Source of the DNA: Erythrobacter sp. BLCC-B19
GTDB lineage: Bacteria > Pseudomonadota > Alphaproteobacteria > Sphingomonadales > Sphingomonadaceae
Direction: 5' to 3'
Length of the DNA: 64,000 nucleotides
Assembly (NCBI RefSeq): GCF_028621955.1
Contig: NZ_CP117516.1
Coordinates: 2,812,001-2,876,000 of the forward strand
Shown: in pieces, positions 18,044-35,371 of the stretch
Layout: every line of letters begins with the position of its first letter
Position numbering within the stretch: position 1 is the stretch's first letter
The notes under the pieces: model-generated
Told to the model about the DNA's origin: nothing
The model's database searches: none
What the model saw: only the letters and a program-made list of their open reading frames with translations
Made by a program: the position numbers and the translations under genes

Positions 18044-19248
18044 GCAATTCCGAAATCATCATTCGCCTCGCCGCCAAGGGCGACGGCGTGACCCCCTCGG
18101 GCCGCCATGTGGCAGGGGCAGTGCCCGGTGATCAGGTGGATGCCGCGGGCGTAATCACGCCCGGCCCGCATCACCAGACGCCGCCGTGTCGTCACTTCGC
18201 AACCTGTGGCGGATGTCAGCTGCAACACGCTGATGATGAGGTGCTTTCTGACTTCGTGCGGGACCGGGTGGTCAATGCCGCGCGCGGGCAGGGGCTTGAA
18301 CCGGACGAGCTGCTCCCCGTCCACCTTTCGCCCCCGCACACCCGTCGCCGCGCCGGGCTGCACGCCCTGCGCACGGCGCGGGGCGCGGTGCTCGGCTACC
18401 GCGAGGGCGGTTCGCACAAGGTGGTCGATCTGGCCGAGTGCCCGGTGCTCCACCCTGATCTTGCCGCGCTGATTGCGCCGCTGCGCCAGTTTGTCGCCGC
18501 CCACGGCCCCAAGGGGATGGTGGGGATCGACCTCACGCGCGCCGATCAGGGGGTTGAGGTGGGGCTGTCGCACTTCCCGCTCGAGGGGCTCGGCCCGACC
18601 GAGGCGGCGCTCGATTTTGCGCGCGACCATCAGCTTGCCCGGCTTGCGATCGATCAGGGCTACGCGCCTGAGACGGTGTGGGAGCCGGAGCCGGTCACGG
18701 TGACGCTGTCGGGCGTGCCGGTCGGCCTGCCGCCGGGCGCTTTCCTTCAGGCAACCGATGATGCGCAGGAACAGATGGTCGCCGATGCGCGGGCCTGGCT
18801 GGGCGAGGCGCGGGTCGTGGCCGATCTGTTTGCGGGCCTTGGCACTTTTGCCTTCGGGTTGAGAGCCAAGGACGATGGTGCTCGCAAGGTGCTCGCGGTC
18901 GAGGCCGAGCGTGCGGCGCATCTCGCCTGCAAGACCGCAGGCGCGCGCGCCGGGGGGCAGGTTCTTGCCTTGCACCGCGATCTGTTTCGCAGCCCTTTGC
19001 AGCCGGACGAGTTGAACCGTTTCGACGCGGTCGTGCTCGATCCGCCGCGGGCCGGAGCGCGGGCGCAAGTCGCGGAAATCGCCCGGAGTACCCTCAGCCG
19101 GGTGGTCTATGTCAGCTGCAACCCCTCAAGCTGGGCCCGCGATGCGGCGGTGCTGGGCGAGGCGGGCTTCCGGCTGACGCGGCTGCGGCCGGTCGGCCAG
19201 TTCCGCTGGTCGACCCATGTCGAGCTGGTGAGCCTGTTCGAGCGCTAG
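18040..19248 (+). CDS. RumA/RlmD-type RNA m5U methyltransferase
   Basis: SAM-dependent uracil-5 methyltransferase of the TrmA/RlmC/RlmD family, acting on rRNA or tRNA. Seen: an Fe-S motif with Cys50, Cys56, Cys59 (C-x5-C-x2-C) and a likely fourth cysteine in LAECPVL; SAM-binding ADLFAGLGTFAFGL; DPPRAGARAQV; and the catalytic cysteine in VVYVSCNPSSWARD. 402 aa, somewhat shorter than E. coli RlmD because the TRAM domain is reduced. The start is GTG at 18040, overlapping the preceding stop. Which uridine it modifies cannot be told from sequence. Confidence 0.88.
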   Translation: MSNSEIIIRLAAKGDGVTPSGRHVAGAVPGDQVDAAGVITPGPHHQTPPCRHFATCGGCQLQHADDEVLSDFVRDRVVNAARGQGLEPDELLPVHLSPPHTRRRAGLHALRTARGAVLGYREGGSHKVVDLAECPVLHPDLAALIAPLRQFVAAHGPKGMVGIDLTRADQGVEVGLSHFPLEGLGPTEAALDFARDHQLARLAIDQGYAPETVWEPEPVTVTLSGVPVGLPPGAFLQATDDAQEQMVADARAWLGEARVVADLFAGLGTFAFGLRAKDDGARKVLAVEAERAAHLACKTAGARAGGQVLALHRDLFRSPLQPDELNRFDAVVLDPPRAGARAQVAEIARSTLSRVVYVSCNPSSWARDAAVLGEAGFRLTRLRPVGQFRWSTHVELVSLFER

Positions 19249-20036
19249 GCGCGCAGCATTTCAAGCAGCTGCGCATCAAGCCACGCGCTGTGCTCGGGCT
19301 CGACATAGGCATGGCCCGCGCCCTCGCAGCGGCGGATGCGGGGATCGGCCTTGTTCCATGCCCCTTCGAACACCTGCGCGGTGCGGTCAGCCGTCGCCAG
19401 CAGGATGGCAACCTCTCCGCCGAAACCCGCGAGGCCTGCGGCCATGTCCTGTGCAAGGCTGGACGGTGGCGGGGGCGGGCTGAGCGCCTGTCTGATCCCA
19501 TGCGCAAGCTTGCGCAGGTTCACACCGCCGCCCAGCAACCGCATGACTTCACGCGGGTTTGTGAGCTTCTCGAGGTAGCGAGCGCGGATCGCTGCGGGGG
19601 GCGGGGTATCGTCGGTCGCACCGCTGGCGCTGTCCTGTTCGATCGTCCACGGATTGGACAGCACCAGCGTATCCATCCCCGCGCCGCCTGCCAGCATCAG
19701 CGCCGAGGCCGCATCGCAATTGCCGAAAGCCACCACCCGCGACATTTGCGGCACCATCGCCCGAAAGGCATCGAGCGCGGCGGCGATGTCCTTGGCCGAA
19801 TGACGAAAACCGCGATTTTCGCCTTCGCTGTCGCCGATTCCGCGGCGATCGAAGCGGAACACCGGGAAGCCCGCCTGCGCAATCCGCGCGGCCATCGCCG
19901 CCTGCCCGCCAAAGGCACCGCTGCGGATCTCGTTGCCGCCGGTCACGATCAGCAGGCCGCTGCTGCCCGGCGCGGTGTCGAGCGTCCCGGCAAGCGTCTG
20001 ATTGCCGCAAGCGAAGGTCAGCGACAGACGGCTCAT
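19245..20036 (-). CDS. XrtA-associated alpha/beta hydrolase 1
   Basis: Alpha/beta hydrolase matching the exosortase-A-associated hydrolase 1 group (TIGR03100 type), 263 aa. Seen: VTGGNEIRSGAFGGQ, the FRFDRRGIGDSEGE strand-loop, and an elbow at AFGNCDAAS where the nucleophile position (about residue 107) is cysteine rather than serine. A possible Asp is in TADRTAQVF and a His in GAGHAYVEP. The substrate is unknown; position in the locus suggests it acts on a product of the ACP/ligase/decarboxylase set. It overlaps hydrolase 2 by 4 bases upstream and shares CTAG with the converging methyltransferase stop. Confidence 0.85.
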   Translation of the reverse strand: MSRLSLTFACGNQTLAGTLDTAPGSSGLLIVTGGNEIRSGAFGGQAAMAARIAQAGFPVFRFDRRGIGDSEGENRGFRHSAKDIAAALDAFRAMVPQMSRVVAFGNCDAASALMLAGGAGMDTLVLSNPWTIEQDSASGATDDTPPPAAIRARYLEKLTNPREVMRLLGGGVNLRKLAHGIRQALSPPPPPSSLAQDMAAGLAGFGGEVAILLATADRTAQVFEGAWNKADPRIRRCEGAGHAYVEPEHSAWLDAQLLEMLRA

Positions 20037-20719
20037 CCCGCTGATCCTGCGATGGAATCGGCAATCAGGGCGGCGAGACGATCGGCCTGCGCGGAATCGT
20101 CATCGGGTTCTGCGCGCAGCCACAGGCCCGGGCCGCCGATGGCGGATTGGGCGATCTCGGTCTGACCATCGGAAAGCCGCGGCTCGGCATCGGCAAGGCT
20201 CTGGATGAGCCCGGCGCCAAGCGACCAGCCGCCCAGCGTCAGCCCCTCGGTCCGGCCCAGCGCCAGCAGCGCTTCGGCGCGTTCCTCGCGGCCTGCCTCA
20301 CGCGCGGCGATGGTGCGCGCACGGATCATGCCGCGCAGCAGCTTGGGGCCGGATTGCGGGGCATAGTGCCAACCGGGCAGGTGGTCGGGGGTAACCAGCG
20401 CGCCCGCGCGGATCGCCAGAACATGGGTGGCCGCGAACTGCTGCGCTGCGGTTGCCATGCCCGCCTGCCATCCGGCGAGCGTCTGCACCGCCAGTGGGGT
20501 GAGGCTGTCATTGCAGCCGGGCAAGTCGGGCAAAAAACTGTCGATCCCGGCGCGGTCGAGCCGCCGCATCACCTCGACCGTGAAGCGACGCAGCTTGTTC
20601 GCCTCGTCGAACCACGCCGGACACACCAGCACCCGCCGCTGGCGCCCCTGATCGAAGGCGACCAGCAGTTCCTCCCGGCCCGCGCCATCCGCGCCGGTGG
20701 GCGTCCAGGTCGAGATCAT
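20033..20719 (-). CDS. XrtA-associated alpha/beta hydrolase 2
   Basis: About 228 aa, related to the exosortase-A-associated hydrolase 2 group (TIGR03101 type). The family block is visible as FDEANKLRRFTVEVMRRLDR followed by FLPDLPGCNDS. At the expected nucleophile elbow the sequence is AIRAGALV, without the GxSxG serine; a GWSLG occurs later (around residue 170) but not at the usual place. It may be a non-catalytic or divergent enzyme. The start is ATG at 20719 or GTG at 20725. It begins only a few bases after the ACP stop and overlaps hydrolase 1, so the minus-strand genes form one operon. Confidence 0.78.
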   Translation of the reverse strand: MISTWTPTGADGAGREELLVAFDQGRQRRVLVCPAWFDEANKLRRFTVEVMRRLDRAGIDSFLPDLPGCNDSLTPLAVQTLAGWQAGMATAAQQFAATHVLAIRAGALVTPDHLPGWHYAPQSGPKLLRGMIRARTIAAREAGREERAEALLALGRTEGLTLGGWSLGAGLIQSLADAEPRLSDGQTEIAQSAIGGPGLWLRAEPDDDSAQADRLAALIADSIAGSAG

Positions 20720-20733
20720 GCCCACGCGGGGAC

Positions 20734-21030
20734 TTAACTGTCGGCGAGCTTGGCCTTGGCGAAGGCCAGCAGCCCGCCATAGGTCTCGAGCATCTCGCCA
20801 TCGACATCATCGTCTTCGATCACGATGCCGAGCCGGTCTTCCATTTCGGTCAGAAGGCCTGCGACCGCCATCGAATCCAGTTCGGGCAGGTGGCCGAACA
20901 GGCCCGATTCAGGGCCGAAGGCGGCCGCCTGCGCCGGGTCAAGCCCGAGGACATCGGCGATCAAGCCCTTGAGTTCCTGATCAAGCGCAGCCTCGGCGGC
21001 TTCGCCTGGCATGGTCGGAAGTGAAGTCAT
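20734..21030 (-). CDS. Acyl carrier protein of the XrtA locus
   Basis: About 98 aa, acidic, with a phosphopantetheine-attachment motif ELDSMA whose Ser53 would carry the 4'-phosphopantetheine arm. Typical four-helix ACP pattern: LIADVLGLDP in helix 1, GLLTEMEDRLGI in helix 2-3, and a C-terminal LLAFAKAKL helix. The ATG at 21030 is preferred over TTG at 21042, whose Shine-Dalgarno-like AGGG would be only about 2 bases away. Likely partner of the AMP-forming ligase and the GNAT protein on either side. It is separate from the fatty-acid acpP, which is not in the window. Confidence 0.88.
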   Translation of the reverse strand: MTSLPTMPGEAAEAALDQELKGLIADVLGLDPAQAAAFGPESGLFGHLPELDSMAVAGLLTEMEDRLGIVIEDDDVDGEMLETYGGLLAFAKAKLADS

Positions 21031-21111
21031 CGGATCGCCCAAATCCCTGTCAACGGCGGATGGCCGCGGGGCTTAGCCATGCCGGTGCCCCGGTGCAAGC
21101 GTCGCACAGCG

Positions 21112-22086
21112 TCACGCGCGCGCCCCAGCGAGCAGACGCTTGGCCAGCGGCGCCCATGCTTTGGGCTGTCCACGATCGAGACAGTCGATCCGGAACCGGG
21201 GGCGCACCTCCTCCATCCAGTCGGCCTTGTAGCTTTGGTCGCCCGTGCCGAAGTCGACGAGGGCGACTGTGTCGACGTCGATCACATGGGCAAACAGCGC
21301 GGCGGTCAGCGTGGTTCCGGCCGACAGCGGCTTGTGGCTTTCGAGATGGGCGAGCTTGTGGATGTAGGCGATGCCGTTCTCGACCGTCCAGCATTGCGCG
21401 GCGACCGCCAGCCCTTCTGCCCGCGCGACACCCAGACGCAAGCGACCGGCCTCGCCCTCGCTTTGCGCAAAAGCGCGCAGCATGGCGGGCTGATCTTCGG
21501 CGGGTTTCCAGCTGGCGGCGTAGATCGCCTCGTAATCAGCCCAGACGTCTGCATCGAAGCGGGTGAGCACCTCGACCTCGACCTTCTTCGCCTTGCGCTT
21601 CAGCGTGGTGCGCAAGGGGCCGGGGCGGGTCTCCCAATATTCGGCAAAGCTGCGCCCGCGCACGGGGAGGATGTGGTTGATATCGCAAGGCTCGACTGCG
21701 ACCTGCCAGCCTGCCGCCCGGAAGGCGCGGGCGAGCCGGTCAGCCGAGCCATCCTCGCCCGGCACCGGTTCGAGCGTCACGCGCCAGCCGCGGCTTTTCA
21801 ATTGCCGCGCGATCGCTTCGAGCAGCCGGTCGCCCGCTGGGCCGGGCGGGGCGAGCTCGCGCCAGGTGAAGCTGTACCAGTTGCGTAAGGGGGTGATCCG
21901 CCCACGATCGCTGGTCAGCGCAAGCGCTGCGGTCGCCTCGCCATCGCCCGCCATCGCGACCAGCGGGACAAGCCCCGTCTCGGCGAGCAGCGCAAACCAC
22001 TCGGCCCGGTCAAAGGGCGCGGTCGCTTGCGGCGCAGTCAGCGCTTGCAAGACGTTAACGCTATCGTGATACCGCGCTTCGATCAC
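21112..22086 (-). CDS. GNAT/FemAB-like acyltransferase of the XrtA locus
   Basis: About 324 aa with a C-terminal GNAT fold of the BioF2-like/FemAB-related type: KPLSAGTTLTAALFAHVID and VDFGTGDQSYKADWMEEVRP are the acyl-CoA/ACP-binding and family-specific blocks, preceded by a basic LRTTLKRKAKKVEVEV segment. Expected to move an acyl or aminoacyl group to an amine. The open frame reaches 22224, but that part overlaps the divergent ligase; GTG at 22086 is the probable start, leaving only about 9 bases to the opposing ATG. First gene of the minus-strand set ahead of the ACP and hydrolases. Confidence 0.78.
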   Translation of the reverse strand: MIEARYHDSVNVLQALTAPQATAPFDRAEWFALLAETGLVPLVAMAGDGEATAALALTSDRGRITPLRNWYSFTWRELAPPGPAGDRLLEAIARQLKSRGWRVTLEPVPGEDGSADRLARAFRAAGWQVAVEPCDINHILPVRGRSFAEYWETRPGPLRTTLKRKAKKVEVEVLTRFDADVWADYEAIYAASWKPAEDQPAMLRAFAQSEGEAGRLRLGVARAEGLAVAAQCWTVENGIAYIHKLAHLESHKPLSAGTTLTAALFAHVIDVDTVALVDFGTGDQSYKADWMEEVRPRFRIDCLDRGQPKAWAPLAKRLLAGARA

Positions 22087-22095
22087 TGGAAAAGA

Positions 22096-23649
22096 ATGCT
22101 CCTGACTATGCCGCAACTGCCCGATCCGCTCCCCTTTCCGCTCGATCACCTGGCCGAACTGGCCGGGGCGGCGGGGCGTGGGGAGAGCCCGGCGCTGGTG
22201 CTGCGCGAGGGCACGCTTAACCACAATCAGTTAAGGTTGCGTGTTGCTCGGTTGGCCGGATGGCTGGCGCAGATGGTGCCCGACAAGGGTGCGCGGGTCG
22301 CAACCTGGGCCGCGAAGGGCGAGCTGACCTGCCTGCTGCCGCTGGCGGCGGCGCGGGCCGGGCTGGTTCATGTGCCGGTGAATCCGCTGCTGAAACGCGC
22401 GCAGGTGGCGCATATTCTGGCTGACAGCGGCACGCGGCTGCTGATCGGCACCGGCTCGCGGCTTGCCTCGCTCGAACCCGGCGATCTGCCCCCCGGCTGC
22501 GCCGCGCTGGGCGAGGGCGAGGCGCTGGCGGCGGCAGAAGCGGCGGGGCGCGAGCTTGGCCCGTCTGCGGCTGATCCGGCGGACCTTGCCGCGATCCTCT
22601 ACACCTCGGGTTCGACCGGCCGCCCCAAGGGGGTGATGCTGAGCCATGCCAATATGTGGCTCGGCGCGGTGAGCGTGGCGCATTACCTTGGACTTGCCGA
22701 GGACGACGTGACGCTCGCCGTGCTGCCGCTGTCCTTCGATTACGGGCAGAACCAGCTTCTGAGCACCTGGTATGCGGGCGGCTGCGTGGTGCCGCTTGAT
22801 TTCCTGTTCCCCAAGGATGTCGCCAAGGCCTGCGCCAGGCATGGAGTGACGACGCTCGCCGCCGTGCCGCCCTTGTGGGTGCAGCTGACCGAGATCGACT
22901 GGCCGCCCGAGGCCAGCGCGCCGCTACGGCGGCTGACCAATAGCGGCGGGGCGCTCACGGTCGATCTGGTGCGATCCCTGCGCGGCCTGTTCCCGCAGGC
23001 GCGGCTGTTCCCGATGTATGGCCTGACCGAAGCGTTCCGTTCGACCTATCTCGATCCCGCGCTGGTCGATACCCACCCGACCTCGATGGGCAAGGCGATC
23101 CCCTTTGCCGAGATCCTCGTGGTGAACGACGCGGGCGAAGTCGCCGCCGATAGCGAGGAGGGCGAGCTGGTGCATTGCGGCCCGCTGGTGGCGCAAGGCT
23201 ATTGGCAAGACCCGGAACGCTCGGCGGAGCGCTTCAAGCCCGCACCCGCTGCGTCCACCTATGGCGGGATGGCGGTGTACTCGGGCGACCGGGTCAAGCG
23301 CGAGGCGGGTGGATTGCTCTATTTCGCCGGGCGGCGCGATGCGATGATCAAGAGCGCGGGCAACCGCATCAGCCCGCAGGAGATCGAGGAAGCCGCACTC
23401 GCCACCGGGCTTGCTGCCGAGGCGGTGGCGCTGGGCGTGCCCCATCCGCGTCTCGGGCAGGCGGTGCATCTGGTGGTGCGCGGCGATCCGGCGGGGGCGG
23501 AGGAACTGCCGAAACGGCTCCAGCGCGATCTTCCCAATTTCATGCAGCCTCAGCACATTCACTGGCGCGAAGCGATGCCGCTGAACCCCAACGGCAAGAT
23601 CGACCGCACCGCGCTGCAGGCGCAGCTCAACAAGGAATATGGCGAATGA
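22096..23649 (+). CDS. XrtA-associated acyl-CoA ligase (AMP-forming)
   Basis: Adenylate-forming ligase of the exosortase-A-associated type (TIGR03098), about 517 aa. Seen: P-loop YTSGSTGRPKGV, MYGLTEAFRSTYLDP, YSGDRVKREAGGLLYFAGRRD and the C-terminal catalytic lysine region LNPNGKIDRTAL. It probably loads a carboxylic acid or amino acid onto the locus ACP or CoA. The start ATG at 22096 follows GGAAAAG; ATG at 22108 is possible. It overlaps the decarboxylase as ATGA, so the two are coupled. Divergent from the GNAT gene with almost no spacer. Confidence 0.9.
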   Translation: MLLTMPQLPDPLPFPLDHLAELAGAAGRGESPALVLREGTLNHNQLRLRVARLAGWLAQMVPDKGARVATWAAKGELTCLLPLAAARAGLVHVPVNPLLKRAQVAHILADSGTRLLIGTGSRLASLEPGDLPPGCAALGEGEALAAAEAAGRELGPSAADPADLAAILYTSGSTGRPKGVMLSHANMWLGAVSVAHYLGLAEDDVTLAVLPLSFDYGQNQLLSTWYAGGCVVPLDFLFPKDVAKACARHGVTTLAAVPPLWVQLTEIDWPPEASAPLRRLTNSGGALTVDLVRSLRGLFPQARLFPMYGLTEAFRSTYLDPALVDTHPTSMGKAIPFAEILVVNDAGEVAADSEEGELVHCGPLVAQGYWQDPERSAERFKPAPAASTYGGMAVYSGDRVKREAGGLLYFAGRRDAMIKSAGNRISPQEIEEAALATGLAAEAVALGVPHPRLGQAVHLVVRGDPAGAEELPKRLQRDLPNFMQPQHIHWREAMPLNPNGKIDRTALQAQLNKEYGE

Positions 23650-24872
23650 AGCCCGTCGGCCCGATCCCTGCCGGTTACGAGACGCTGGACGGCGAGCTTG
23701 CCATCGGCGGCAAGACCGCAAGCGCGCTGGTGGCCGAGGCGGGGCGCACGCCGCTGTTCGTCTATTCGCGCGCGCTGCTCGATGCGCGGGTGGCGCAATT
23801 GCGCGCGGCACTGCCAGCGCGGGTGGGGGTGAATTATGCCGTAAAGGCCAACCCGCACCCGCTGGTGATCGCGCACATGGCGCCACTGGTCGACGGGTTC
23901 GACATTGCCTCGTCAGGCGAATTGGCGCTCTGCATTGCGGCGGGGATCGACCCCCGGCGGATCAGCTTTGCCGGGCCGGGCAAGCGTGACGACGAGCTTG
24001 AGGCCGCGATTGCCGCTGGCGTGACGCTCAATTGCGAGAGCGAGGGCGAGGGGGTGCGCGCGCTTGCCATCGGGCAACGTCTGGGCACGCCCCCGCGCAT
24101 CGCGATCCGGGTGAACCCCAGCTTTGTCATGACCGGATCGGGCATGAAGATGGGCGGCGGGGCCAAGCAGTTCGGGGTCGATGCCGACAAGGTGCCCGCT
24201 CTCGCGCGGCGGCTGATCGGCGAGGGGGCCGAATGGCGCGGCCTGCACATCTTCACCGGCAGCCAGACCCTCAGCGCCGATGCGATCATCGAGGCGCAGG
24301 CCAATGTCCTCGCTCTGGCGGCGGAGCTGACCGAGGCAATCGGCCACGGCTGCCCCAAGCTCAACATGGGCGGGGGGCTGGGCATACCCTATTTCCCCGG
24401 CGACACGCCAGTCGATCTCCCCAAGGTCGGCGCGGCGCTGGCCGAGCGGGTCGCAGACCTGCCGCCCACGCTGGCGGAGACCGAATTGTGCATGGAAATG
24501 GGCCGCTATCTCGTCGGCGAGGCGGGGGTGTACCTGTGCCGCGTGATCGACCGCAAGGACAGCCACGGCACCACCTTCCTCGTCACCGATGGCGGGCTGC
24601 ATCACCAGCTGGCCGCATCGGGCAATTTCGGCACGGTCGTGCGTCGCAACTATCCGTCAGCGATTGCAACACGTTACGGGGCGGAGCCGACGGAAGAAGT
24701 CAACATCGTCGGCTGCCTGTGCACCCCGCTCGATCGGCTCGCCGACAATGCCATGATGCCGCACGCCGAGGTGGGCGATCTGGTCGCGGTGTTCTGTGCC
24801 GGCGCCTATGGTGCGAGCGCCAGCCCGAGCGCCTTTCTCGGCCATGGGCCAGCGGCTGAAATGCTGGTCTGA
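23646..24872 (+). CDS. XrtA-associated PLP-dependent decarboxylase
   Basis: Fold-type III (alanine racemase/ornithine decarboxylase-like) PLP enzyme of the exosortase-A-associated group (TIGR03099), 408 aa. Lys68 in NYAVKANPHP is the PLP lysine; GFDIASSGEL, the HIFTGSQTLSADAI strand and NMGGGLGIPY bind cofactor; the second-subunit active-site region is GCLCTPLDRL. Resembles diaminopimelate decarboxylase, but the locus indicates a specialised amino acid substrate. ATG at 23646 overlaps the ligase stop. Followed by a 200-base leader before the export operon. Confidence 0.9.
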   Translation: MKPVGPIPAGYETLDGELAIGGKTASALVAEAGRTPLFVYSRALLDARVAQLRAALPARVGVNYAVKANPHPLVIAHMAPLVDGFDIASSGELALCIAAGIDPRRISFAGPGKRDDELEAAIAAGVTLNCESEGEGVRALAIGQRLGTPPRIAIRVNPSFVMTGSGMKMGGGAKQFGVDADKVPALARRLIGEGAEWRGLHIFTGSQTLSADAIIEAQANVLALAAELTEAIGHGCPKLNMGGGLGIPYFPGDTPVDLPKVGAALAERVADLPPTLAETELCMEMGRYLVGEAGVYLCRVIDRKDSHGTTFLVTDGGLHHQLAASGNFGTVVRRNYPSAIATRYGAEPTEEVNIVGCLCTPLDRLADNAMMPHAEVGDLVAVFCAGAYGASASPSAFLGHGPAAEMLV

Positions 24873-25072: not shown

Positions 25073-25714
25073 ATGACCCATCATCTGCCCTTCAAGCATC
25101 TCGCAAGCCTGGCGATCGGCGCTGCCTTGCTCGGCGCCTGTGCAGGGGGCGGCAAGGAGCTTCCTGCGGCAAGCTATGGCGATGGTTCGGTCGCACCGTC
25201 CGAGGAATACACCATCGGGCCATTGGACGAGATCACCATTCACGTCTGGCGCAACCCCGAACTCAGCGCCGACAAGGTGCGGGTGCGCCCCGATGGCCGC
25301 CTGACGATCCCGCTGGTGCAGGACATCCCGGCCGTGGGCAAGACCGCGACCGAACTCCAGACCTACATCGCCGGCGAGCTGTCCAAGTATATCGAACAGC
25401 CGATCGTCTCGGTCATCGTCAACACGCCGGAAGGCAACTTCACCCAGCAGGTGCGCATCATCGGCGCGACGCCGCAGCCCGCCTCGCTGCCGTTCCGCGC
25501 CAACATGACGGCATTGGACGCGATGATCGCGGTGGGCGGCCTTGGCGAATTTGCCGCTGGCAATCGCGCCAAGCTGATCCGGCTCAACCGCGAGACCGGC
25601 ACGCAGACCGAATACCGCCTGCGTCTGGCTGACCTCATCCGCAAGGGCGATGCCTCGGCCAATGTCATGCTCAAGCCCGGCGATACCATCATCATCCCCG
25701 AGAGCCGGTTCTAA
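25073..25714 (+). CDS. XrtA-system polysaccharide export lipoprotein
   Basis: Wza-like outer-membrane auxiliary export protein, 213 aa, of the exosortase-A type (TIGR03027-like). Signal peptide with lipobox LLGACAG (acylated Cys near residue 23). The Poly_export domain is YTIGPLDEITIHVWRNPELS, then VRVRPDGRLTIPLVQDI; the SLBB repeat follows with VRIIGATPQPASLPFRANM and LKPGDTIIIPESRF. It should form the secretion channel with the Wzz-like protein directly downstream. First gene of a plus-strand operon running to 37267. Confidence 0.93.
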   Translation: MTHHLPFKHLASLAIGAALLGACAGGGKELPAASYGDGSVAPSEEYTIGPLDEITIHVWRNPELSADKVRVRPDGRLTIPLVQDIPAVGKTATELQTYIAGELSKYIEQPIVSVIVNTPEGNFTQQVRIIGATPQPASLPFRANMTALDAMIAVGGLGEFAAGNRAKLIRLNRETGTQTEYRLRLADLIRKGDASANVMLKPGDTIIIPESRF

Positions 25715-25729
25715 GGGGCGCGCGGGGGC

Positions 25730-27253
25730 ATGAGCGATATCTTCGACGAATTGCGCGCGGCGCTCTGGTCGGTCTGGCACCGGCGCTGGATCGCGATTGC
25801 GGTCGCGTGGGGTGTGTGCGTGCTGGGGTGGCTGGTCGTCAGCATGATCCCCAACACCTTCGAAAGCAAGGCGCGCGTCTATGTCGACGTGCAGGATGTG
25901 CTCTCCAAGCAGCTCGGCATTGCCGGGGACGGCAAGGAAGAGATCATGCGCGTGCGCCAGACGCTGTCGAGCGCGAAGAATCTCGAAAAGGTCATCACCT
26001 CCACGCGCCTTGGCGAAGGCATCACCGAGCGCGGCGCGCTGGATGCGGCGATCAGCGAGCTGGAAAAGAAGGTCAAGGTGACGAGCGAGCAGGACAACCT
26101 GTTCGAAATCACCGCCGAGATCGGCAAGGGCGATCTGGGCGATGCCGAGAACGCCGTGCTGGCGCGCGATGTGGTGCAGAAGCTGCTCGACATCCTGCGC
26201 GAGGAGCACGTGATCGGCAACCGCACCGGGATCAGCACCGCGATTGGCGATCTCGACCGCCAGCTGGACGAGCGCAAGCTTGAGCTGGAACAGGCCGAAC
26301 AGCGCCGTCTGGCGTTCGAGGCGCAATATCCCGATCTTGTCGGCGGCTCGGAAACGCTGTCGGCCAAGGTGCAGCAGGCGCGCACCGAACTGCGCAATGT
26401 CGATGCTGATCTGGCGGCGGCGGAAAGCGGGCTGGCGGCGATCGGTTCGCAGCTGGCGAGCACCCCGCGCACGCTGCCCGGTGGCGGCGGCCCGGCGATG
26501 GGCCCGCGCGCGGCGCTGCTCCAGGCGCAGACTCAGCTCGCCGAACTGCGCGCCCGCGGCCTCACCGACAGCCACCCCGATGTCGTCTCCACCACCAAGC
26601 AGGTCGCGATCCTGACCCGTCAGGCCGCAGGCGCGGGCGATGATGTGGGCGGCACGCCCAACCCCGCCTATGCCTCGCTGATCGCGATCAGGAGCGAGCG
26701 TCAGGCGAGTGTCGAAGCCTTGCAAGCCCGCCGCGCCGCGCTCCAGAGCAACTTCGCCGCGCTGATGGCGAGCCAGGCGAGCGAGCCGACCGTCGCCGCC
26801 GAAGCCAACCGCATCAGCCGCGATTACGACGTGCTGCGCCAGAACTACGAAAAGCTGCTGCAGGACCGCGAGGCGCTGAAGACACGCGGCAAGGTCGAGG
26901 ACAAGGCGAGCCAGTTCCGCTTCGACGTGATCCAGCAGCCGAGCGTCCCGCAAAAGCCCGCCGCACCCAACCGCCCGTTGCTGCTGCTGGGCGTGCTGAT
27001 CGTCGGCCTCGGGGCAGGCGTGGCGGGAGCCTATGCGATGGGGCAATTGAAGTCGAGCTTTGCCACCCCGCAGAAGCTGGAGCGCAGCTTCGATCTGCCG
27101 GTGATCGGTTCGATCTCGCTGACCATTTCCGAAGCGGCGCGCGCGGCCGAGAAAAAGCGGCTGAAGCAGTTTGCCGGAGCCTGCGCAGGGCTTGGCGCGA
27201 TGTTCGTGATCCTGCTCGCGATCGAGGTCGTCTCGGTCGGATCGATTGCGTGA
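25730..27253 (+). CDS. XrtA-system polysaccharide chain-length determinant
   Basis: Wzz/GumC-like inner-membrane polysaccharide co-polymerase, 507 aa (TIGR03007-like). An N-terminal transmembrane helix (RWIAIAVAWGVCVLGWLVV) is followed by the Wzz domain and a long periplasmic coiled coil (LDERKLELEQAEQRRLAFEA). The GNVR-type region ends in PAAPNRPLLLLGVLIVG, the second transmembrane helix, and a third hydrophobic segment is at the C terminus. It should span the envelope and regulate chain length together with the tyrosine kinase, whose frame begins at its end. Confidence 0.93.
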   Translation: MSDIFDELRAALWSVWHRRWIAIAVAWGVCVLGWLVVSMIPNTFESKARVYVDVQDVLSKQLGIAGDGKEEIMRVRQTLSSAKNLEKVITSTRLGEGITERGALDAAISELEKKVKVTSEQDNLFEITAEIGKGDLGDAENAVLARDVVQKLLDILREEHVIGNRTGISTAIGDLDRQLDERKLELEQAEQRRLAFEAQYPDLVGGSETLSAKVQQARTELRNVDADLAAAESGLAAIGSQLASTPRTLPGGGGPAMGPRAALLQAQTQLAELRARGLTDSHPDVVSTTKQVAILTRQAAGAGDDVGGTPNPAYASLIAIRSERQASVEALQARRAALQSNFAALMASQASEPTVAAEANRISRDYDVLRQNYEKLLQDREALKTRGKVEDKASQFRFDVIQQPSVPQKPAAPNRPLLLLGVLIVGLGAGVAGAYAMGQLKSSFATPQKLERSFDLPVIGSISLTISEAARAAEKKRLKQFAGACAGLGAMFVILLAIEVVSVGSIA

Positions 27254-27266
27254 GGGGGGACACACG

Positions 27267-28283
27267 ATGACCGACAACAGCAAGATCAACCGGGATGGCG
27301 CAAGGCCCGCCTCGCTGTTCGAGCGGGCGGACGCGGCCTTCGGGCTCGATCCGCGCCGCGAAGGGCTGAAGCTGCCCCCCGTGCCGATTGACGTGCCGCC
27401 GGTGCCACAGGCGCTGCGCCGTCCGGCCCCCCAGCCGCAAGCCGCGCCGCAAGCCGCGCCCCAGCCTGCCGCGCCGTCTTTCGCCAAGGCGCCTGCGCCG
27501 CAGCCCGTCGCCGAACCGGCCAAGCCTGCCGCAGAGGCACCGCGCGCGGTGGCCTTTGCGGGGCCGTTTGCGCGGATCGACCGCGAACATCTGCGCGATG
27601 GCGGGTTGATCGTGCCCGAAGACCCGGTGACCGGGCTTCTCGAAGAGTTCCGCATCGTCAAGCGCGAGCTTCTGGCCGATGCCCGCGCCGGTGCCAGCGC
27701 GCTGGCCCGCCGCATCCTGGTCTGCTCGCCGCATCCGGGCGAGGGCAAGACCTATTGCGCCACCAACCTCGCGATCGCGCTCGCTGCCGAGCGCGGGCTT
27801 GAGGTGCTGCTGGTCGATGCCGATGTGGTCAAGCCGAGCGTCACCCAGCGCTTCGGGATCGAGGCCGAGCAAGGCCTGATGGACGCGCTCGCCGATCCGT
27901 CGATTGCGCCGGAAAACCTCGTGATCCGCACCGATATCGAAGGGCTGTTCGTGCTGCCGGCGGGCACCGCAACCTCGCGCGATGCCGAATATCTGGCGAG
28001 CGCCCGCACCGGCGCGGTGCTCGACCGCCTCACCGTGGGCGCGCCTGACCGGATCGTGATTTTCGACACGCCCCCCGCGCTCGCCGCATCGCCCGCCGCA
28101 GAACTCGCCCAGCATGTCGGGCAGGCCTTGCTGGTGGTGCGTGCCGACGAGACGAGCCGCGCTGCGCTGGAAGACGCACAGCAGCTGCTCTCGGCCTGCG
28201 CGGATATCAAATTGCTGCTGAATGCCGCGCGCTACAGCCCCTCGGGGCGGCGCTTCGGCACTTATGGCACGAAGGGAAGGTAA
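27267..28283 (+). CDS. XrtA-associated tyrosine autokinase
   Basis: Bacterial tyrosine kinase (BY-kinase) of the exosortase A type, 338 aa. An Ala/Pro/Gln-rich linker at about residues 45-90 precedes the kinase. Walker A is PHPGEGKT near residue 155-162, Walker A' VLLVDADVVKPS, Walker B IVIFDTPPALA. The C terminus has only two tyrosines (RYSPSGRRFGTYG), fewer than in many BY-kinases. It is expected to bind the Wzz-like partner and control assembly by phosphorylation cycling. The ATG at 27267 follows GAGGGGGGA; TTG at 27246 is rejected. Confidence 0.92.
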   Translation: MTDNSKINRDGARPASLFERADAAFGLDPRREGLKLPPVPIDVPPVPQALRRPAPQPQAAPQAAPQPAAPSFAKAPAPQPVAEPAKPAAEAPRAVAFAGPFARIDREHLRDGGLIVPEDPVTGLLEEFRIVKRELLADARAGASALARRILVCSPHPGEGKTYCATNLAIALAAERGLEVLLVDADVVKPSVTQRFGIEAEQGLMDALADPSIAPENLVIRTDIEGLFVLPAGTATSRDAEYLASARTGAVLDRLTVGAPDRIVIFDTPPALAASPAAELAQHVGQALLVVRADETSRAALEDAQQLLSACADIKLLLNAARYSPSGRRFGTYGTKGR

Positions 28284-28286
28284 GCG

Positions 28287-29945
28287 ATGCTCCCCCGCAT
28301 TCTCACATCGGCACTGACGCTGGCGGCGCTGGCTGCGGCGGGCCATGCCGCGCCCGCTTTCGCACAGGCGCAAGGCGGCGCCGGAGCCGGGCAGGGCGGC
28401 GACGTCCCCGGCCAGCGCGCCAACCGCGTGGTGCAGCCCTATATCGAAGTCGGGCAGGTGGTCTCCGCCGAGATCAGCCCGGGCAACGACGTCGTCACCT
28501 TCACGCAGGTGGCCGCAGGCGTCGACATCAACGTGCAGGGCCGCAATTCGGGCGCTGCCGTCTCGGTGCGCTATGAACGCAATATCGGCTATGGCGACGA
28601 CAGCGTCGACAGCAACACCATCAGCGGGGTCGCGCGCGGCACGCTGGGCGTGGTGCCGGGCAAGCTCAGCCTTGAGGCTGGCGCGCTCGCCTCGCGCAGC
28701 CGGATTGACGCAGGCGGCGGCACCACCGCCAACCCGCTGGTGCGCGAGGATGCCGAAAGCCGGATCTATTCCGCCTATGCCGGACCGAGCCTCAACACCC
28801 GCGTCGGCGATGTCGCCGTGCAGGGTGTGGCCCGCGTCGGCTACAACCGCTTCGAGGCCGATGATGCGCTGGTGACCCAGCAGGGGCAGGCGGTCGACGT
28901 GTTCGATGACAGCGTGACCTATATGGGTCAGCTGCGCGCCGCCACCCGCCCGGGCGAGCCGCTGCCGGTGGGCCTTGCGGTCACCGCAGGCGGCTTTCAG
29001 GAAGACATCGGCAATCTCGATCAGCGCGTGCGTGACCTTTACGTGCGCGGCGATGTGACCGTGCCGGTCAGCCAGAGCCTCGCGCTGGTGGCGGGCGCGG
29101 GTTACGAGGATGTCGAGATTTCCAGCCGCGATGCGGTGCGCGATGCCAATGGCGTGCCGGTGATCGGGGCCGATGGCCGCTTTGTCACCGATCCCAATGC
29201 GCCGCGCCGGATCGCCTTCGATGTCGACGGGCTGCTGTGGGATGTGGGCGTGCTGTGGCGCCCATCGTCGCGCACCAATCTTCAGGCGGCGGTCGGGCGG
29301 CGGTACGATTCGACCACCTATTACGGCACCTTCACCTATGTCCCCAACCAGCGCAGCGCCTTTGCGGTGTCGGCCTATGACGGGGTCAGCGGCTTTGGCG
29401 GGGTGCTCAACAATGCGCTCGCCGGGCTCGACAGTGATTTCCAGGCGATCCGCAATCCGGTGACCGGCGACTTTGCCGGGATCGTCACCGGCACCGAGGG
29501 GCAGGCGCTGATCGGCGGGCTCGGCTCGACCCGGTCGGCGGCGTTCCGCGGGCGCGGGGTGCGCGCTTCGTACCAGCGCACCATGGGCCGCACCGTCGCG
29601 GCGCTGGGCGCGGGCTATGACCGGCGCACCTTCATTGCGGCAGCGGGCACCGTGCTCGCCCCGGTCAACGGCCTCACCGACGAAAGCTATTACGTGGTCG
29701 GCGGCCTCACCCGCCAGATCGGGCAGGACGCGAGCCTGACCACCAACGCCTACGTCAACTGGTTCGACGCCGCCGGCAACACCAACGACGTCACCGCCGT
29801 GGGTGCCTCTGCTGCTTACAACCAGGCCATCACCCAGCGCCTCGTCGGCCGGGCGGCGATCGCGGTCGACTGGTTCGACAGCGAATTCACCGCCGAAGAC
29901 TTCGCCTTCGCCACCGCGCTGGTCGGCCTGCGCTACAACTTCTGA
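28287..29945 (+). CDS. TIGR03016-type outer-membrane protein of the XrtA system
   Basis: 552-aa predicted outer-membrane beta-barrel. Signal peptide ends in AAPAFAQ; a Gly/Gln-rich stretch follows (QGGAGAGQGGDVPGQ), then many alternating amphipathic strands, and the protein ends ALVGLRYNF with the C-terminal aromatic residue expected for BAM-dependent insertion. Matches the PEP-CTERM-system-associated outer-membrane family by length and position between kinase and ATPase. Likely the export pore or an accessory barrel for the exopolysaccharide. Confidence 0.88.
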   Translation: MLPRILTSALTLAALAAAGHAAPAFAQAQGGAGAGQGGDVPGQRANRVVQPYIEVGQVVSAEISPGNDVVTFTQVAAGVDINVQGRNSGAAVSVRYERNIGYGDDSVDSNTISGVARGTLGVVPGKLSLEAGALASRSRIDAGGGTTANPLVREDAESRIYSAYAGPSLNTRVGDVAVQGVARVGYNRFEADDALVTQQGQAVDVFDDSVTYMGQLRAATRPGEPLPVGLAVTAGGFQEDIGNLDQRVRDLYVRGDVTVPVSQSLALVAGAGYEDVEISSRDAVRDANGVPVIGADGRFVTDPNAPRRIAFDVDGLLWDVGVLWRPSSRTNLQAAVGRRYDSTTYYGTFTYVPNQRSAFAVSAYDGVSGFGGVLNNALAGLDSDFQAIRNPVTGDFAGIVTGTEGQALIGGLGSTRSAAFRGRGVRASYQRTMGRTVAALGAGYDRRTFIAAAGTVLAPVNGLTDESYYVVGGLTRQIGQDASLTTNAYVNWFDAAGNTNDVTAVGASAAYNQAITQRLVGRAAIAVDWFDSEFTAEDFAFATALVGLRYNF

Positions 29946-29961
29946 TCGGGACACGCGGCTC

Positions 29962-31134
29962 ATGTACGAACAATTCTACGGCTTCACCGGGCGCCCCTTC
30001 CAGCTGACCCCTGATCCGCAGTTCTATTTCGAGAGCACCAGCCACAAGAAGGCGATGAGCTATCTGGGCTATGGCCTGGTGCAGGGTGAGGGCTTCATCG
30101 TCATCACCGGCGAGGTCGGTGCAGGCAAGTCGACCCTGGTCGCGCATCTGATGGAGCGGATCGACCCCAATGCCCTGAGCGTCGCGCAGGTCGTCACTTC
30201 GGCGCTCGACGGGGCCGAGATCGTCCACGTCGTTGCACAGGCCTTCGGGCTTCATGTCGAAGGGCATGACAAGGCCGGAGCGCTGGGCGCCATCGAACGC
30301 TTCCTGCAGGACGAGGCCCGCGCCGGTCGCCGCTGCCTGCTGGTGGTGGACGAATGCCAGAACCTCGATCTGACCGCGCTGGAAGAGCTGCGGATGCTCT
30401 CCAACTTCCAGCTGGGCGCGCATCCGCTGCTGCAATCGCTGCTGCTGGGCCAGCCCGAATTCCGCCGCACCGTGGCACATCATCCCGATCTCGAGCAGCT
30501 GCGCCAGCGCATCATCGCCTCGCACCATCTTGAAGCGCTCGATGAGAGCGAGGTCGAGGCCTATGTCCGCCACCGCCTTCAGCACGTGGGTTGGAATGGA
30601 CGGCCGGCCTTTGCCGCAGGGCTGCTGGAAGGGCTCTACCGCCATACCGACGGCATCCCGCGCCGGGTCAACCAGGTGATGAACCGCCTGCTGCTGCTCG
30701 GCGTGATCGAGGAGCGCGAGGAACTGACGCTTGCCATGCTGGGCGATGTGATTGCCGAGATGGCCGCCGATCAGAACCGCGGCGCGCGCGGTGGCAGCGA
30801 TCTGCGCGCGGCACCCGAAGCCGCGCCTGCGGCCGTGCCGCCGCCGCAGGGCAGCCTGCCCGCGACCGAAGTCGCCGCGCTGCTCGCCGAGCGCGATGCG
30901 CGCACGGCCGAGCTTGAAGCGGCGATCGGCGAATTGCAGGCCGCAGGTCTCGCCCGTCGGACCGGCGAGGGCGAGGCCCTCAATCCCGAGGAGGCGCAGG
31001 TGGCCGAGGCTCGCCTTGCCTCGGCGCTCGAACGGATCGAGGCGCGGCTTGAGGAACAGGAGCAATCCTTCCGCCACGTGCTCACCATGCTGATCGAGTG
31101 GCTTGAGGAAGACCCGTCGCGCAGGGCCGCCTGA
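29962..31134 (+). CDS. XrtA-system-associated secretion ATPase
   Basis: 390-aa AAA+ ATPase related to GspA/ExeA (TIGR03015 type). It starts MYEQFYGFTGRPFQLTPDP. Walker A GEVGAGKST is at residues 50-58 and Walker B LLVVDECQN around 126-133. The lid/sensor region is HTDGIPRRVNQVMNRLLLLG. A C-terminal Ala/Glu-rich tail (QVAEARLASALERIEARLEEQ) is a likely coiled coil. It probably energises assembly of the envelope machinery. Start ATG at 29962; the deacetylase starts 2 bases after its stop. Confidence 0.93.
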   Translation: MYEQFYGFTGRPFQLTPDPQFYFESTSHKKAMSYLGYGLVQGEGFIVITGEVGAGKSTLVAHLMERIDPNALSVAQVVTSALDGAEIVHVVAQAFGLHVEGHDKAGALGAIERFLQDEARAGRRCLLVVDECQNLDLTALEELRMLSNFQLGAHPLLQSLLLGQPEFRRTVAHHPDLEQLRQRIIASHHLEALDESEVEAYVRHRLQHVGWNGRPAFAAGLLEGLYRHTDGIPRRVNQVMNRLLLLGVIEEREELTLAMLGDVIAEMAADQNRGARGGSDLRAAPEAAPAAVPPPQGSLPATEVAALLAERDARTAELEAAIGELQAAGLARRTGEGEALNPEEAQVAEARLASALERIEARLEEQEQSFRHVLTMLIEWLEEDPSRRAA

Positions 31135-31136
31135 GC

Positions 31137-32072
31137 ATGAACGCGCCCTTTCCCGAGTTTCCCGGCTCTGACCTCCACAATGGCATCGTCAACGGCCTGT
31201 CGGTCGATGTCGAGGACTGGTTTCAGGTCGGCGCCTTCGAGAACGTCATTGCCCGCGGAGAGTGGGACAGCATCAAGACCCGCGTGGAAGACAATGTCTA
31301 CCGCGTGATCGATCTGTTCGCCGAAGCCGATGTCAGCGCGACCTTCTTCACGCTGGGCTGGGTGGCGCAGCGCCATCCCAACATGATCCGCCGGATCGTC
31401 GATGCCGGGCACGAGATTGCCAGCCACGGCTATGACCATGCGCGGGTGTTCACCTTCACGCGCAAGGAGTTCGGCGAGGATATTCGCAGGGCGCGCGAGG
31501 TGATCGAGGATTGCTGCGGGGTCGCGGTCAAGGGCTACCGGGCACCGAGCTTCTCGATCGATCACCGCACGCCCTGGGCCTTCGCCGAACTGGCCGAGCA
31601 GGGCTACGTCTATTCGAGCAGCGTCGCGCCGGTGGTGCACGATCACTATGGCTGGCCCGAAGCGCCGCGCTTTGCCTTCCGGCCTCTGCCGTGGTCGTCG
31701 ATGATCGAAATTCCGGTGACGACCGCGATCCTCGGCGGGCGGCGTGTGGCGGCGGGCGGGGGCGGGTTCTTCCGCGTGCTGCCCTATGCCTTTTCGCGCT
31801 GGGCGATCCGTCAGGTCAACCGCAGCGATGGCCGTCCGGCGGTGTTCTATTTCCACCCGTGGGAGGTCGATCCGCAGCAGCCGCGCGTCGGCCATGCGCC
31901 GCTGCGTTCGCGCTTCCGGCACTATACGGGCCTTGCCAAGATGGCGGGCAAGCTGCGCGAGCTGGTGCATGATTTTCGCTGGGGCCGGATGGATCTGGTC
32001 GCCCACCGTGAAGCTGCGCGGGCAGAGCCGCTGGTGCTGCCCGAACCGGCCGAGGCCGAGGCGGCGGAATGA
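31137..32072 (+). CDS. XrtA-system polysaccharide deacetylase
   Basis: Carbohydrate esterase family 4 type deacetylase (TIGR03006 type), 311 aa, expected to remove acetyl groups from amino sugars in the exopolysaccharide. The NodB motifs are SVDVEDWF with the catalytic base Asp, HEIASHGYDHARV with metal-binding His residues, KGYRAPSFSID, and a C-terminal YFHPWEVDP. No signal peptide is visible. Its stop overlaps the FemAB start (ATGA). Confidence 0.93.
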   Translation: MNAPFPEFPGSDLHNGIVNGLSVDVEDWFQVGAFENVIARGEWDSIKTRVEDNVYRVIDLFAEADVSATFFTLGWVAQRHPNMIRRIVDAGHEIASHGYDHARVFTFTRKEFGEDIRRAREVIEDCCGVAVKGYRAPSFSIDHRTPWAFAELAEQGYVYSSSVAPVVHDHYGWPEAPRFAFRPLPWSSMIEIPVTTAILGGRRVAAGGGGFFRVLPYAFSRWAIRQVNRSDGRPAVFYFHPWEVDPQQPRVGHAPLRSRFRHYTGLAKMAGKLRELVHDFRWGRMDLVAHREAARAEPLVLPEPAEAEAAE

Positions 32073-33130
32073 ATGCGCCGGTGAAATCCGGCGAAGTGGT
32101 GCGCGTCGCCGACTGGCGTGATCCGGGCGAAGCGCGCCGGATCGCGGGCTTTGTCGCCGAAGCGGGCGCGAGCCTGTTCCACAGTCCCGCCTGGCTCAAG
32201 GCGGTCGAAGCCGGCACCGGCCAGCGCGCTGGCGGGCTGGTGGCCGAACGCATGGGCGTGCTGACAGGCTGGCTGCCGCTCACCGAAGTGCGCTCGGCCC
32301 TGTTCGGCAAGGCGCTGGTTTCCAGCGGATTTGGCGTGGCAGGCGGGATCATCGCCGCGAGCGACAGCGCCATGCAGGCGCTCGCCGAGGGCGCGCAGGA
32401 TTACGCGCGCCGCGCCGGATTTGGCGGCATCGAACTGCGCGGCGGGCCTGTTCCCGCAGGCTGGGAGGCGTGGTCGGACAAGCATTGCGGCTTCGAACGT
32501 GCGCTTGCCAGCGACGATGAAGCAGAGCTGCTCGCGATTCCGCGCAAGGCCCGTGCCGAAGTGCGCAAGGGGCTGGGTTTTGGCCACCGTGTCACGGTGG
32601 GGCGAGCCAAGGAAGACCTCGCCGCGCATTATGCCTGTTACAGCGCCAGCGTGCGCAATCTCGGCACGCCGGTGTTCCCGCGTTCGCTGTTTGCCGCGAT
32701 GCTGGAGGCCTTTCCCGACAAGAGCGACATTCTTACCGTCTGGCAGGACGATACCCCGCTGGCGAGCGTGCTGAGCTTCTATCACGATGGCGCGGTGATG
32801 CCCTTCTGGGGCGGGGGCGTGTTTGCAGCGCGGGGCGCGCGGGCGAACGAGGTAATGTATTATGCACTGATGCTGCACGCCCGGCAGCAGGGCATGAGCC
32901 GTTTCGACTTCGGTCGCTCCAAGACCGGGAGCGGGCCTTTCGCCTTCAAGAAGAACTGGGGCTTCGAGCCGCAGCCGCTGACCTATTGTGCCTGGACCGC
33001 CCCGGGCGCGCCGCCGCGCAACATCGATCCCACCGACGCGAGCTACAGCCGCAAGATCGAATTGTGGAAACGGCTGCCGCTTCCGGTCGCCAATCTTGTG
33101 GGGCCGTGGATCGCGCGCGGGCTGGCGTGA
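32069..33130 (+). CDS. FemAB-like protein of the XrtA system
   Basis: 353-aa FemAB/GNAT-fold protein (TIGR03019 type). FemAB enzymes transfer aminoacyl groups from tRNA to peptidoglycan amines; this branch is tied to exosortase loci, with an unknown acceptor. Seen: SPAWLKAVEAGTGQRAGGLV at the N terminus, EAELLAIPRKARAEVRKGL, YASVRNLGTPVFPRSLF-like region, FDFGRSKTGSGPFAFKKNWG and the C-terminal IELWKRLPLPVANLVGPW. It may decorate the polysaccharide or its carrier with an amino acid. Overlaps both neighbours by a few bases. Confidence 0.9.
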   Translation: MNAPVKSGEVVRVADWRDPGEARRIAGFVAEAGASLFHSPAWLKAVEAGTGQRAGGLVAERMGVLTGWLPLTEVRSALFGKALVSSGFGVAGGIIAASDSAMQALAEGAQDYARRAGFGGIELRGGPVPAGWEAWSDKHCGFERALASDDEAELLAIPRKARAEVRKGLGFGHRVTVGRAKEDLAAHYACYSASVRNLGTPVFPRSLFAAMLEAFPDKSDILTVWQDDTPLASVLSFYHDGAVMPFWGGGVFAARGARANEVMYYALMLHARQQGMSRFDFGRSKTGSGPFAFKKNWGFEPQPLTYCAWTAPGAPPRNIDPTDASYSRKIELWKRLPLPVANLVGPWIARGLA

Positions 33131-35359: not shown

Positions 35360-35371
35360 GCCGCTTGGACG

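Follow-up and report, generated by a model that had tools for sequence, protein, structure and literature searches.

A candidate beta-aminoacyl carrier protein module beside the exosortase A polysaccharide operon of Erythrobacter sp. BLCC-B19

Background

Decarboxylation of an amino acid while it is held on a carrier protein is the closest described counterpart of the chemistry proposed here for a module of six genes in Erythrobacter sp. BLCC-B19. The module lies in a stretch of 64,000 nucleotides (hereafter referred to as the window; positions 2,812,001 to 2,876,000 of NZ_CP117516.1), taken from a genome consisting of one contig of 3.6 Mb, and encodes a hydrolase (hydrolase 1), a hydrolase-2-like protein, a stand-alone acyl carrier protein (ACP), a GNAT-fold protein, a stand-alone adenosine monophosphate (AMP)-forming ligase and a pyridoxal phosphate (PLP)-dependent decarboxylase. 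It adjoins the polysaccharide operon associated with exosortase A (XrtA) and the PEP-CTERM system.

In vicenistatin biosynthesis, VinN loads 3-methylaspartate on the carrier VinL, where it is decarboxylated by VinO (PMC11284099). Loading of L-aspartate on a free carrier and its decarboxylation there to beta-alanine are shown for AfcQ, AfcK and AfcP (AFC-BC11) and proposed for BolO, BolC and BolN (bolagladin) (PMC12186527, PMC7756342), and BtrK decarboxylates glutamate on the carrier BtrI in butirosin biosynthesis (PMC7857480).

The window module resembles the VinN-VinL-VinO system in its stand-alone adenylation enzyme, stand-alone ACP and PLP decarboxylase and in four pocket residues of the ligase described below, and differs from it in having no adjacent polyketide synthase, in its position by a polysaccharide operon and in two further pocket residues; VinO was not part of the comparison. 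The ligase of an afc-like locus of Burkholderia arboris is 46.5% identical to that of the window, whereas the Afc and Bol products enter lipopeptides and the afc-like decarboxylase is far from that of the window. As in the BtrI-BtrK system (PDB 2j66, 7ru7), the decarboxylase is a fold-III PLP enzyme of the type that acts on an ACP-bound amino acid. The BtrI-BtrK system is set apart from the window module by its substrate, glutamate. The loader in that system is an ATP-grasp enzyme rather than an adenylation enzyme. If the substrate is aspartate, the net chemistry would equal that of the aspartate 1-decarboxylase PanD, which is an unrelated pyruvoyl enzyme acting on free aspartate.

Window genes score above the cut-offs of the three exosortase A-associated models TIGR03098, TIGR03099 and TIGR03100, which name a context and not a reaction. 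Within one open-licence library, with subscription papers and NCBIfam notes outside the scope, no paper proposing this reaction was found, none contains more than one of the terms exosortase A, acyl-CoA ligase and pyridoxal-dependent decarboxylase, and none with beta-alanyl stood among the matches listed (the best 15 of 219 and 12 of 291). One paper combines exosortase, PEP-CTERM, acyl carrier protein and decarboxylase, and one transcriptome paper combines exosortase with beta-alanine. In the 2006 PEP-CTERM paper, six terms describing these enzymes are all absent; neither a decarboxylase nor a hydrolase is mentioned in the paper on Aquincola flocs.

Results and discussion

Predicted activity of the core enzymes

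It is probable that the ACP, the ligase and the decarboxylase (hereafter referred to as the core triad) generate a beta-aminoacyl-ACP, most likely beta-alanyl-ACP from L-aspartate, which would serve polysaccharide transfer at XrtA loci and have a further job independent of the XrtA operon. As suggested by its pocket residues, the ligase would activate an acidic amino acid, most likely L-aspartate, as the adenylate of its side-chain carboxylate and transfer it to the phosphopantetheine arm of the ACP; the decarboxylase, judging from its family, would then strip the free alpha-carboxylate on the ACP to leave beta-alanyl-ACP, or gamma-aminobutyric acid (GABA)-ACP if glutamate were loaded. The original prediction had joined adenylation, ACP loading and decarboxylation into one pathway, and the family and residue evidence favours this part of it.

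Counts of the decarboxylase and XrtA refer to 398 Pseudomonadota genomes, and so does the overall count of panD. Stretches were fetched for 26 of the 30 genomes among them with a decarboxylase above the cut-off (G000, G019, G535 and G547 were left out). The Sphingomonadales loci are 57 of at least 21 kb out of the 80 best of a scan of named genomes, which were mostly or all Sphingomonadales. An ACP lies inside the fetched stretch at 24 of the 26 sampled loci and 55 of the 57 Sphingomonadales loci, and its phosphopantetheine-type Ser is kept in every row of both alignments (26/26 and 69/69).

A search with the full-length ligase returned nonribosomal peptide synthetase (NRPS) proteins as the best matches, each with two matched stretches, and with the pocket segment two VinN sequences lead at 46 bits, the next match reaching 36. 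VinN Asp230, Ser299, Met323 and Arg331 are all matched in the window ligase in a gap-free loop alignment, with Phe in place of Lys330 and Tyr in place of Phe231. In VinN, Asp230 is described as binding the amino group and Ser299 and Arg331 the alpha-carboxylate, with Lys330 and Phe231 described too (PMC11253843, PMC7756342); Met323 is described in PMC9484153. The equivalents of Asp230 and Arg331 occur in 36/36 aligned ligases, an alignment into which rows below 190 bits were not taken, and in 76 and 77, respectively, of the 79 rows of a larger alignment, the other three and two rows being gaps. At the position of Ser299, which is Ser in the window, 35 of the 36 ligases carry Ser or Thr. Both Asp and Arg are present at 8/8 named loci and neither occurs in the seven other ligases of the same genome that were aligned, from a total of 25 AMP-ligase matches, fragments included. 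The VinN-type enzyme AfcQ activates L-aspartate, by the side chain according to its authors, who explain this by the Arg, and AfcP decarboxylates the loaded carrier (PMC12186527). The pocket residues suggest that the substrate of the window ligase is an acidic amino acid, probably L-aspartate, which would be activated by its side chain.

At the B. arboris locus (L099), AurF-like, KAS III, decarboxylase, acyl-CoA dehydrogenase, citrate synthase and methyltransferase genes surround the ligase in an arrangement consistent with that of afcN to afcT, and the locus is presumably an afc cluster. Ligase relatives were also seen in two other settings. On a Kitasatospora plasmid (L119, 7988-14175), a ligase with the identical pocket Asp and Arg stands beside an ACP, an asparagine-synthase-like protein and a deacetylase, and an aminotransferase replaces the decarboxylase. 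In Burkholderia cenocepacia (L098, 11296-22551), a ligase of 44.6% and a decarboxylase of 50.7% identity, close to the XrtA type, occur with three KAS III genes, two acyl-CoA dehydrogenases and a LuxR gene in a natural-product cluster.

The top two matches of the decarboxylase among solved structures are BtrK sequences (225 bits), as against 147 bits for the best LysA, from Aquifex; since the best solved match acts on an ACP-bound amino acid, the enzyme is not regarded as LysA-like. Its catalytic-Cys motif reads CT, in contrast to the CE of LysA, in 41/41 rows (the window and 40 loci), and CE is found in 11/11 LysA from related genomes. In a 62-row tree, from which VinO was absent and the divergent L099 row was left out, a branch with a Shimodaira-Hasegawa-like approximate likelihood ratio test (SH-aLRT) support of 100 separates 12 LysA rows (those of the 11 relatives and of Aquifex) from BtrK and the triad decarboxylases. 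A LysA identity was ruled out by the motif (no CE[TS]xD), the clade and the best structural match. The named decarboxylases closest to that of the window are from Porphyrobacter and Erythrobacter among the matches listed (the best 120 of 8000, all close kin). The enzyme is predicted from these comparisons to act on a carrier-bound and not on a free amino acid.

Of twelve stretches taken as LysA, one (L111) turned out to encode a protein related to the window decarboxylase. On a plasmid of Azoarcus sp. KH32C (L115, 9935-11248), a relative called alanine racemase stands beside a HAD hydrolase and folE, with formylmethanofuran and RuBisCO genes as neighbours and no annotated ligase or ACP in the stretch.

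Association with exosortase A and polysaccharide clusters

Among the 398 genomes, a decarboxylase above the cut-off occurs in 30 and XrtA in 35; both are present in 27 (Fisher p 1.5e-31, relatedness ignored), the decarboxylase without XrtA in three (G419, G464, G689) and XrtA without the decarboxylase in eight. Operon genes are present in the stretches of these eight genomes, and no module gene was found there except one weak ligase match of 74 bits (L202). An identical order of fifteen genes, the six-gene module included, is observed at 33 of the 57 Sphingomonadales loci and exceeds chance. Hydrolase 1 is found at 44 of the 46 loci with the export gene, as against 3 of the 11 without it nearby, and GNAT at 39 of the 46.

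Seven further clusters combine the triad with polysaccharide genes or glycosyltransferases in a stretch free of annotated exosortases: those of Aureimonas, Sinorhizobium meliloti, Shinella and Paracoccus and those at L063, L093 and L096. Four of them (Aureimonas, S. meliloti, Shinella and L063) have a polysaccharide deacetylase in the stretch; at L085, a decarboxylase lies within a polysaccharide cluster and a ligase was not found. Since a deacetylase is encoded in XrtA operons too, we propose, as a guess, that it exposes an amine which is then acylated. A polysaccharide substituent is a plausible destination of the product, and the XrtA operon a possible user of it. In the weakest step of the proposed mechanism, the beta-alanyl group would be passed at XrtA loci by the hydrolase-1 protein, the GNAT protein or FemAB, most likely to a deacetylase-exposed amine of the polysaccharide, both the acceptor and the transferase being guessed. 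The link to a polysaccharide made by the original prediction stands in part, on the distribution of hydrolase 1 and the exosortase-free clusters, and is not the whole story, as the loci described next indicate.

Retention of the triad without the operon

Eleven of the 57 Sphingomonadales loci lack an export gene nearby. At three of these, the six-gene module is complete and XrtA is found elsewhere in the genome; at the other eight, the module is reduced to the ACP, the ligase and the decarboxylase, and two of the eight retain one or two operon genes. XrtA above the cut-off is absent from all nine genomes examined in this respect (those of the eight loci and G689), three of which have weaker exosortase matches. 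The decarboxylase tree, a gene tree with a midpoint root, shows five changes of operon presence or absence in five separate lineages, L148, L151 and L158 being scored as operon-positive because XrtA is elsewhere in their genomes; these changes are read as losses of the operon. The two loci with remnants are L138 and L143, at which the operon ATPase and deacetylase (one or two genes) remain by the triad; there the operon seems to have been caught decaying.

The ratio of nonsynonymous to synonymous substitution rates (dN/dS) is 0.15-0.22 for the ligase and decarboxylase between operon-free Croceicoccus and 0.14-0.18 in two operon-bearing pairs; it is higher for the ACP (0.15-0.44), and for the ligase of the pair L127/L126 it is 0.07 at a dS of 3. 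The dS exceeds 1 in many pairs, and three gene comparisons were not computable. The triad thus seems to have a selected role for which XrtA and the neighbouring hydrolases are dispensable. Two expressions of the original prediction, 'self-contained' and 'tied to the exopolysaccharide', are not upheld as the whole story: GNAT is missing from 7 of the 46 operon loci, 8 of the 35 XrtA genomes have no decarboxylase, and genomes without XrtA above the cut-off retain the core. The hydrolases and GNAT are for the most part found together with the operon.

Beta-alanine supply and alternative explanations

Several observations weigh against the proposed generation of beta-alanyl-ACP for a polysaccharide and a further use. 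XrtA operons occur without the module, the module and XrtA lie hundreds of kb apart in G645 (420 kb) and G618, and GNAT is absent from 15 of the 57 loci, seven of which carry the operon. The position of VinN Lys330 is occupied by Phe, and glutamate or 3-methylaspartate may be the substrate instead. CT is missing from three decarboxylases outside the 41 rows (L111, CS; L115, CA; L099, CS); BtrK, like L097, forms a long branch in the tree from which VinO is absent; and the afc-like decarboxylase of L099 is so divergent from that of the window (75 bits) that AfcP, whose activity was measured, provides remote evidence for it. A reading of the six genes as unrelated neighbours, among them a conventional decarboxylase acting on diaminopimelate or diamines and a fatty acyl-CoA ligase, appears very improbable: the Joint Genome Institute (JGI) label 'diaminopimelate decarboxylase' on many close relatives and the NCBIfam name 'acyl-CoA ligase' speak for it, but it is contradicted by the motif, the tree, the pocket and the co-conservation, and a separate, lower-scoring relative in the same genome (C1:2294583, 185 bits) has a score similar to those of LysA proteins from related genomes. 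It is less likely than not that the sole function of the module is to add a beta-alanyl or GABA group to an amino sugar in the polysaccharide that is exported. The conserved fifteen-gene order, the joint occurrence of the decarboxylase and XrtA and the seven exosortase-free polysaccharide clusters, four of them with a deacetylase, agree with such a function, but the purifying selection on bare triads in genomes without XrtA above the cut-off and the operons without a module do not, and relatives also occur in NRPS-like contexts: lower-scoring decarboxylases are found in 16 more genomes, some by NRPS-like genes and some in polysaccharide clusters. In G414, 1.9 Mb separate the ligase gene from the decarboxylase gene.

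A marginally stronger, though tentative, alternative is that the triad replaces PanD, beta-alanine being released from the ACP as the substrate of PanC on the way to pantothenate and coenzyme A (CoA), with the polysaccharide link as a second use or an accident of neighbourhood. The panD gene is present in 0/51 triad genomes, that of the window included (21 genomes, the 30 with a decarboxylase above the cut-off, seven of them shared, and seven more), as against 197/398 overall; the Fisher p of 6e-10 is inflated by kinship, and the 30 triad genomes span nine family codes. It is also absent from G029, whose decarboxylase is below the cut-off, and occurs in 6 of the 16 genomes with lower-scoring decarboxylases, so that its absence is not seen there. 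PanC is encoded in 18 of the 19 genomes tested, among them that of the window and all nine with a bare triad, and in 12 of the 13 that are triad-positive. Contrasts within families point the same way: in f186, G342 and G636 have the triad and no panD, and G397, G503 and G673 have panD and no triad; in f214, G598 has the triad and no panD, and the triad-negative G478 and G617 have panD. The retention of the triad in the nine genomes without XrtA above the cut-off, the five changes read as operon losses and the low dN/dS values are in keeping with this function, as is Erythrobacter sp. SD-21, a bare-triad species (L143) for which a published table lists PanB and PanC and none of ADC (PanD), PYD3, AAM, GabT and GAD (PMC7142369); some Bartonella likewise lack any beta-alanine route in that table, which weakens the evidence (PMC7142369). 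Against a replacement of PanD, alphaproteobacteria mostly lack panD regardless of the triad (ADC in 37/204 genomes in the same source, PMC7142369), and only two of six triad-negative Sphingomonadales (G028, G040) have it, neither triad nor panD being found in G034 (complete) and in G008, G032 and G038 (94-95% complete). In f186, G552 lacks both, the triad-positive G636 lacks panC, 7 of the 8 XrtA-positive, decarboxylase-negative genomes are without panD, no release enzyme was recognised beside bare triads, and the counts are inflated by the relatedness of the species. The replacement of PanD is ranked below the generation of beta-alanyl-ACP for polysaccharide transfer and a further use because triad-negative relatives, XrtA-only genomes and alphaproteobacteria are often without panD.

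One of the genomes mentioned above, G028 of the Sphingomonadales, has XrtA and panD and no triad, the reverse of the usual state.

Gene layout and accessory proteins

All six genes lie where the original prediction had placed them beside the export operon (Table 1). They form two divergent arms with about 10 bases between them at the chosen starts; promoter and terminator scans gave a signal no higher than in shuffles.

Table 1. Features of the module and its surroundings (window coordinates; L-numbers denote other loci)
Feature	Coordinates	Strand	Remarks
Hydrolase 1, exosortase A system-associated	19245..20036	-	TIGR03100, 215.8 bits (cut-off 168.45)
Divergent hydrolase-2-like protein	20033..20725	-	TIGR03101, 33.5 bits (below the cut-off of 202.75)
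Stand-alone ACP	20734..21030	-	PF00550
Attachment-type Ser of the ACP	20872-20874		ELDSMA motif
GNAT-fold protein	21112..22086	-	PF13480 as sole match; chosen start GTG
Stand-alone AMP-forming ligase (adenylation enzyme)	22096..23649	+	TIGR03098, 627.1 bits (cut-off 592.35)
Ligase Asp	22738-22740	+	
Ligase Ser	22942-22944	+	
Ligase Met	23014-23016	+	
Ligase Arg	23038-23040	+	
Ligase Lys	23596-23598	+	catalytic-type
Fold-III PLP decarboxylase	23646..24872	+	TIGR03099, 577.8 bits (cut-off 478.45); BtrK-like
Decarboxylase Lys	23844-23846	+	PLP-type
Decarboxylase Cys	24720-24722	+	CTPxD motif
XrtA/PEP-CTERM polysaccharide operon	25073..37267	+	downstream of the module; export protein (TIGR03027) first, amidotransferase last; chain length, kinase, ATPase and glycosyltransferase genes between
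Operon deacetylase	31137-32072		
Operon FemAB	32069-33130		
Operon exosortase A	34352-35359		
Family of about 290 residues, L101	11047-11916		
Family of about 290 residues, L114	12499-13386		
Family of about 290 residues, L116	8811-9656		
Family of about 290 residues, L063	6967-7857		

The folds assigned to hydrolase 1 and GNAT are based on family matches and motifs. Hydrolase 1 scores above its family cut-off and carries Cys107, Asp217 and His242 at the positions of the alpha/beta-hydrolase catalytic triad; the Cys, Asp and His are present in 25/25 rows, a related Shinella hydrolase among them, and in 56, 57 and 57, respectively, of the 58 rows of a larger alignment. A Cys as the hydrolase nucleophile suits acyl transfer or thioester cleavage, and hydrolase 1 is a possible thioesterase or acyltransferase. 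The hydrolase-2-like protein falls far short of the TIGR03101 cut-off and, in our reading of the alignment register, such proteins carry Arg at the presumed nucleophile site in 16/16 rows; it is for this reason probably no hydrolase, and is perhaps a partner of hydrolase 1 without catalytic activity of its own.

GNAT occurs at 9 of the 26 sampled and 42 of the 57 Sphingomonadales loci; being so patchy, it cannot be the general transferase, and it is regarded as a candidate aminoacyl transferase. A family of about 290 residues, distinct from this GNAT family, is encoded beside the ligase in the polysaccharide clusters of Aureimonas, Sinorhizobium, Shinella and G419, which have no exosortase in the stretch; no Pfam match was found in the three of its four members that were searched. 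The family may be GNAT-like and is a candidate transferase.

Conclusion

The proposed conversion would give a concrete reaction to enzyme families that have so far been named just after the adjoining exosortase, and would extend carrier-bound decarboxylation of the macrolactam and lipopeptide type to polysaccharide clusters. It is also conceivable, at the tentative level given above, that in sphingomonads and some other Pseudomonadota without PanD the triad supplies the beta-alanine otherwise missing for CoA, a use that is guessed, and that at XrtA loci beta-alanyl-ACP feeds the polysaccharide as well; the carrier on which aspartate would then be decarboxylated has beta-alanine as part of its own phosphopantetheine arm. 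The source of beta-alanine in many bacteria without PanD thus becomes a directly testable question.

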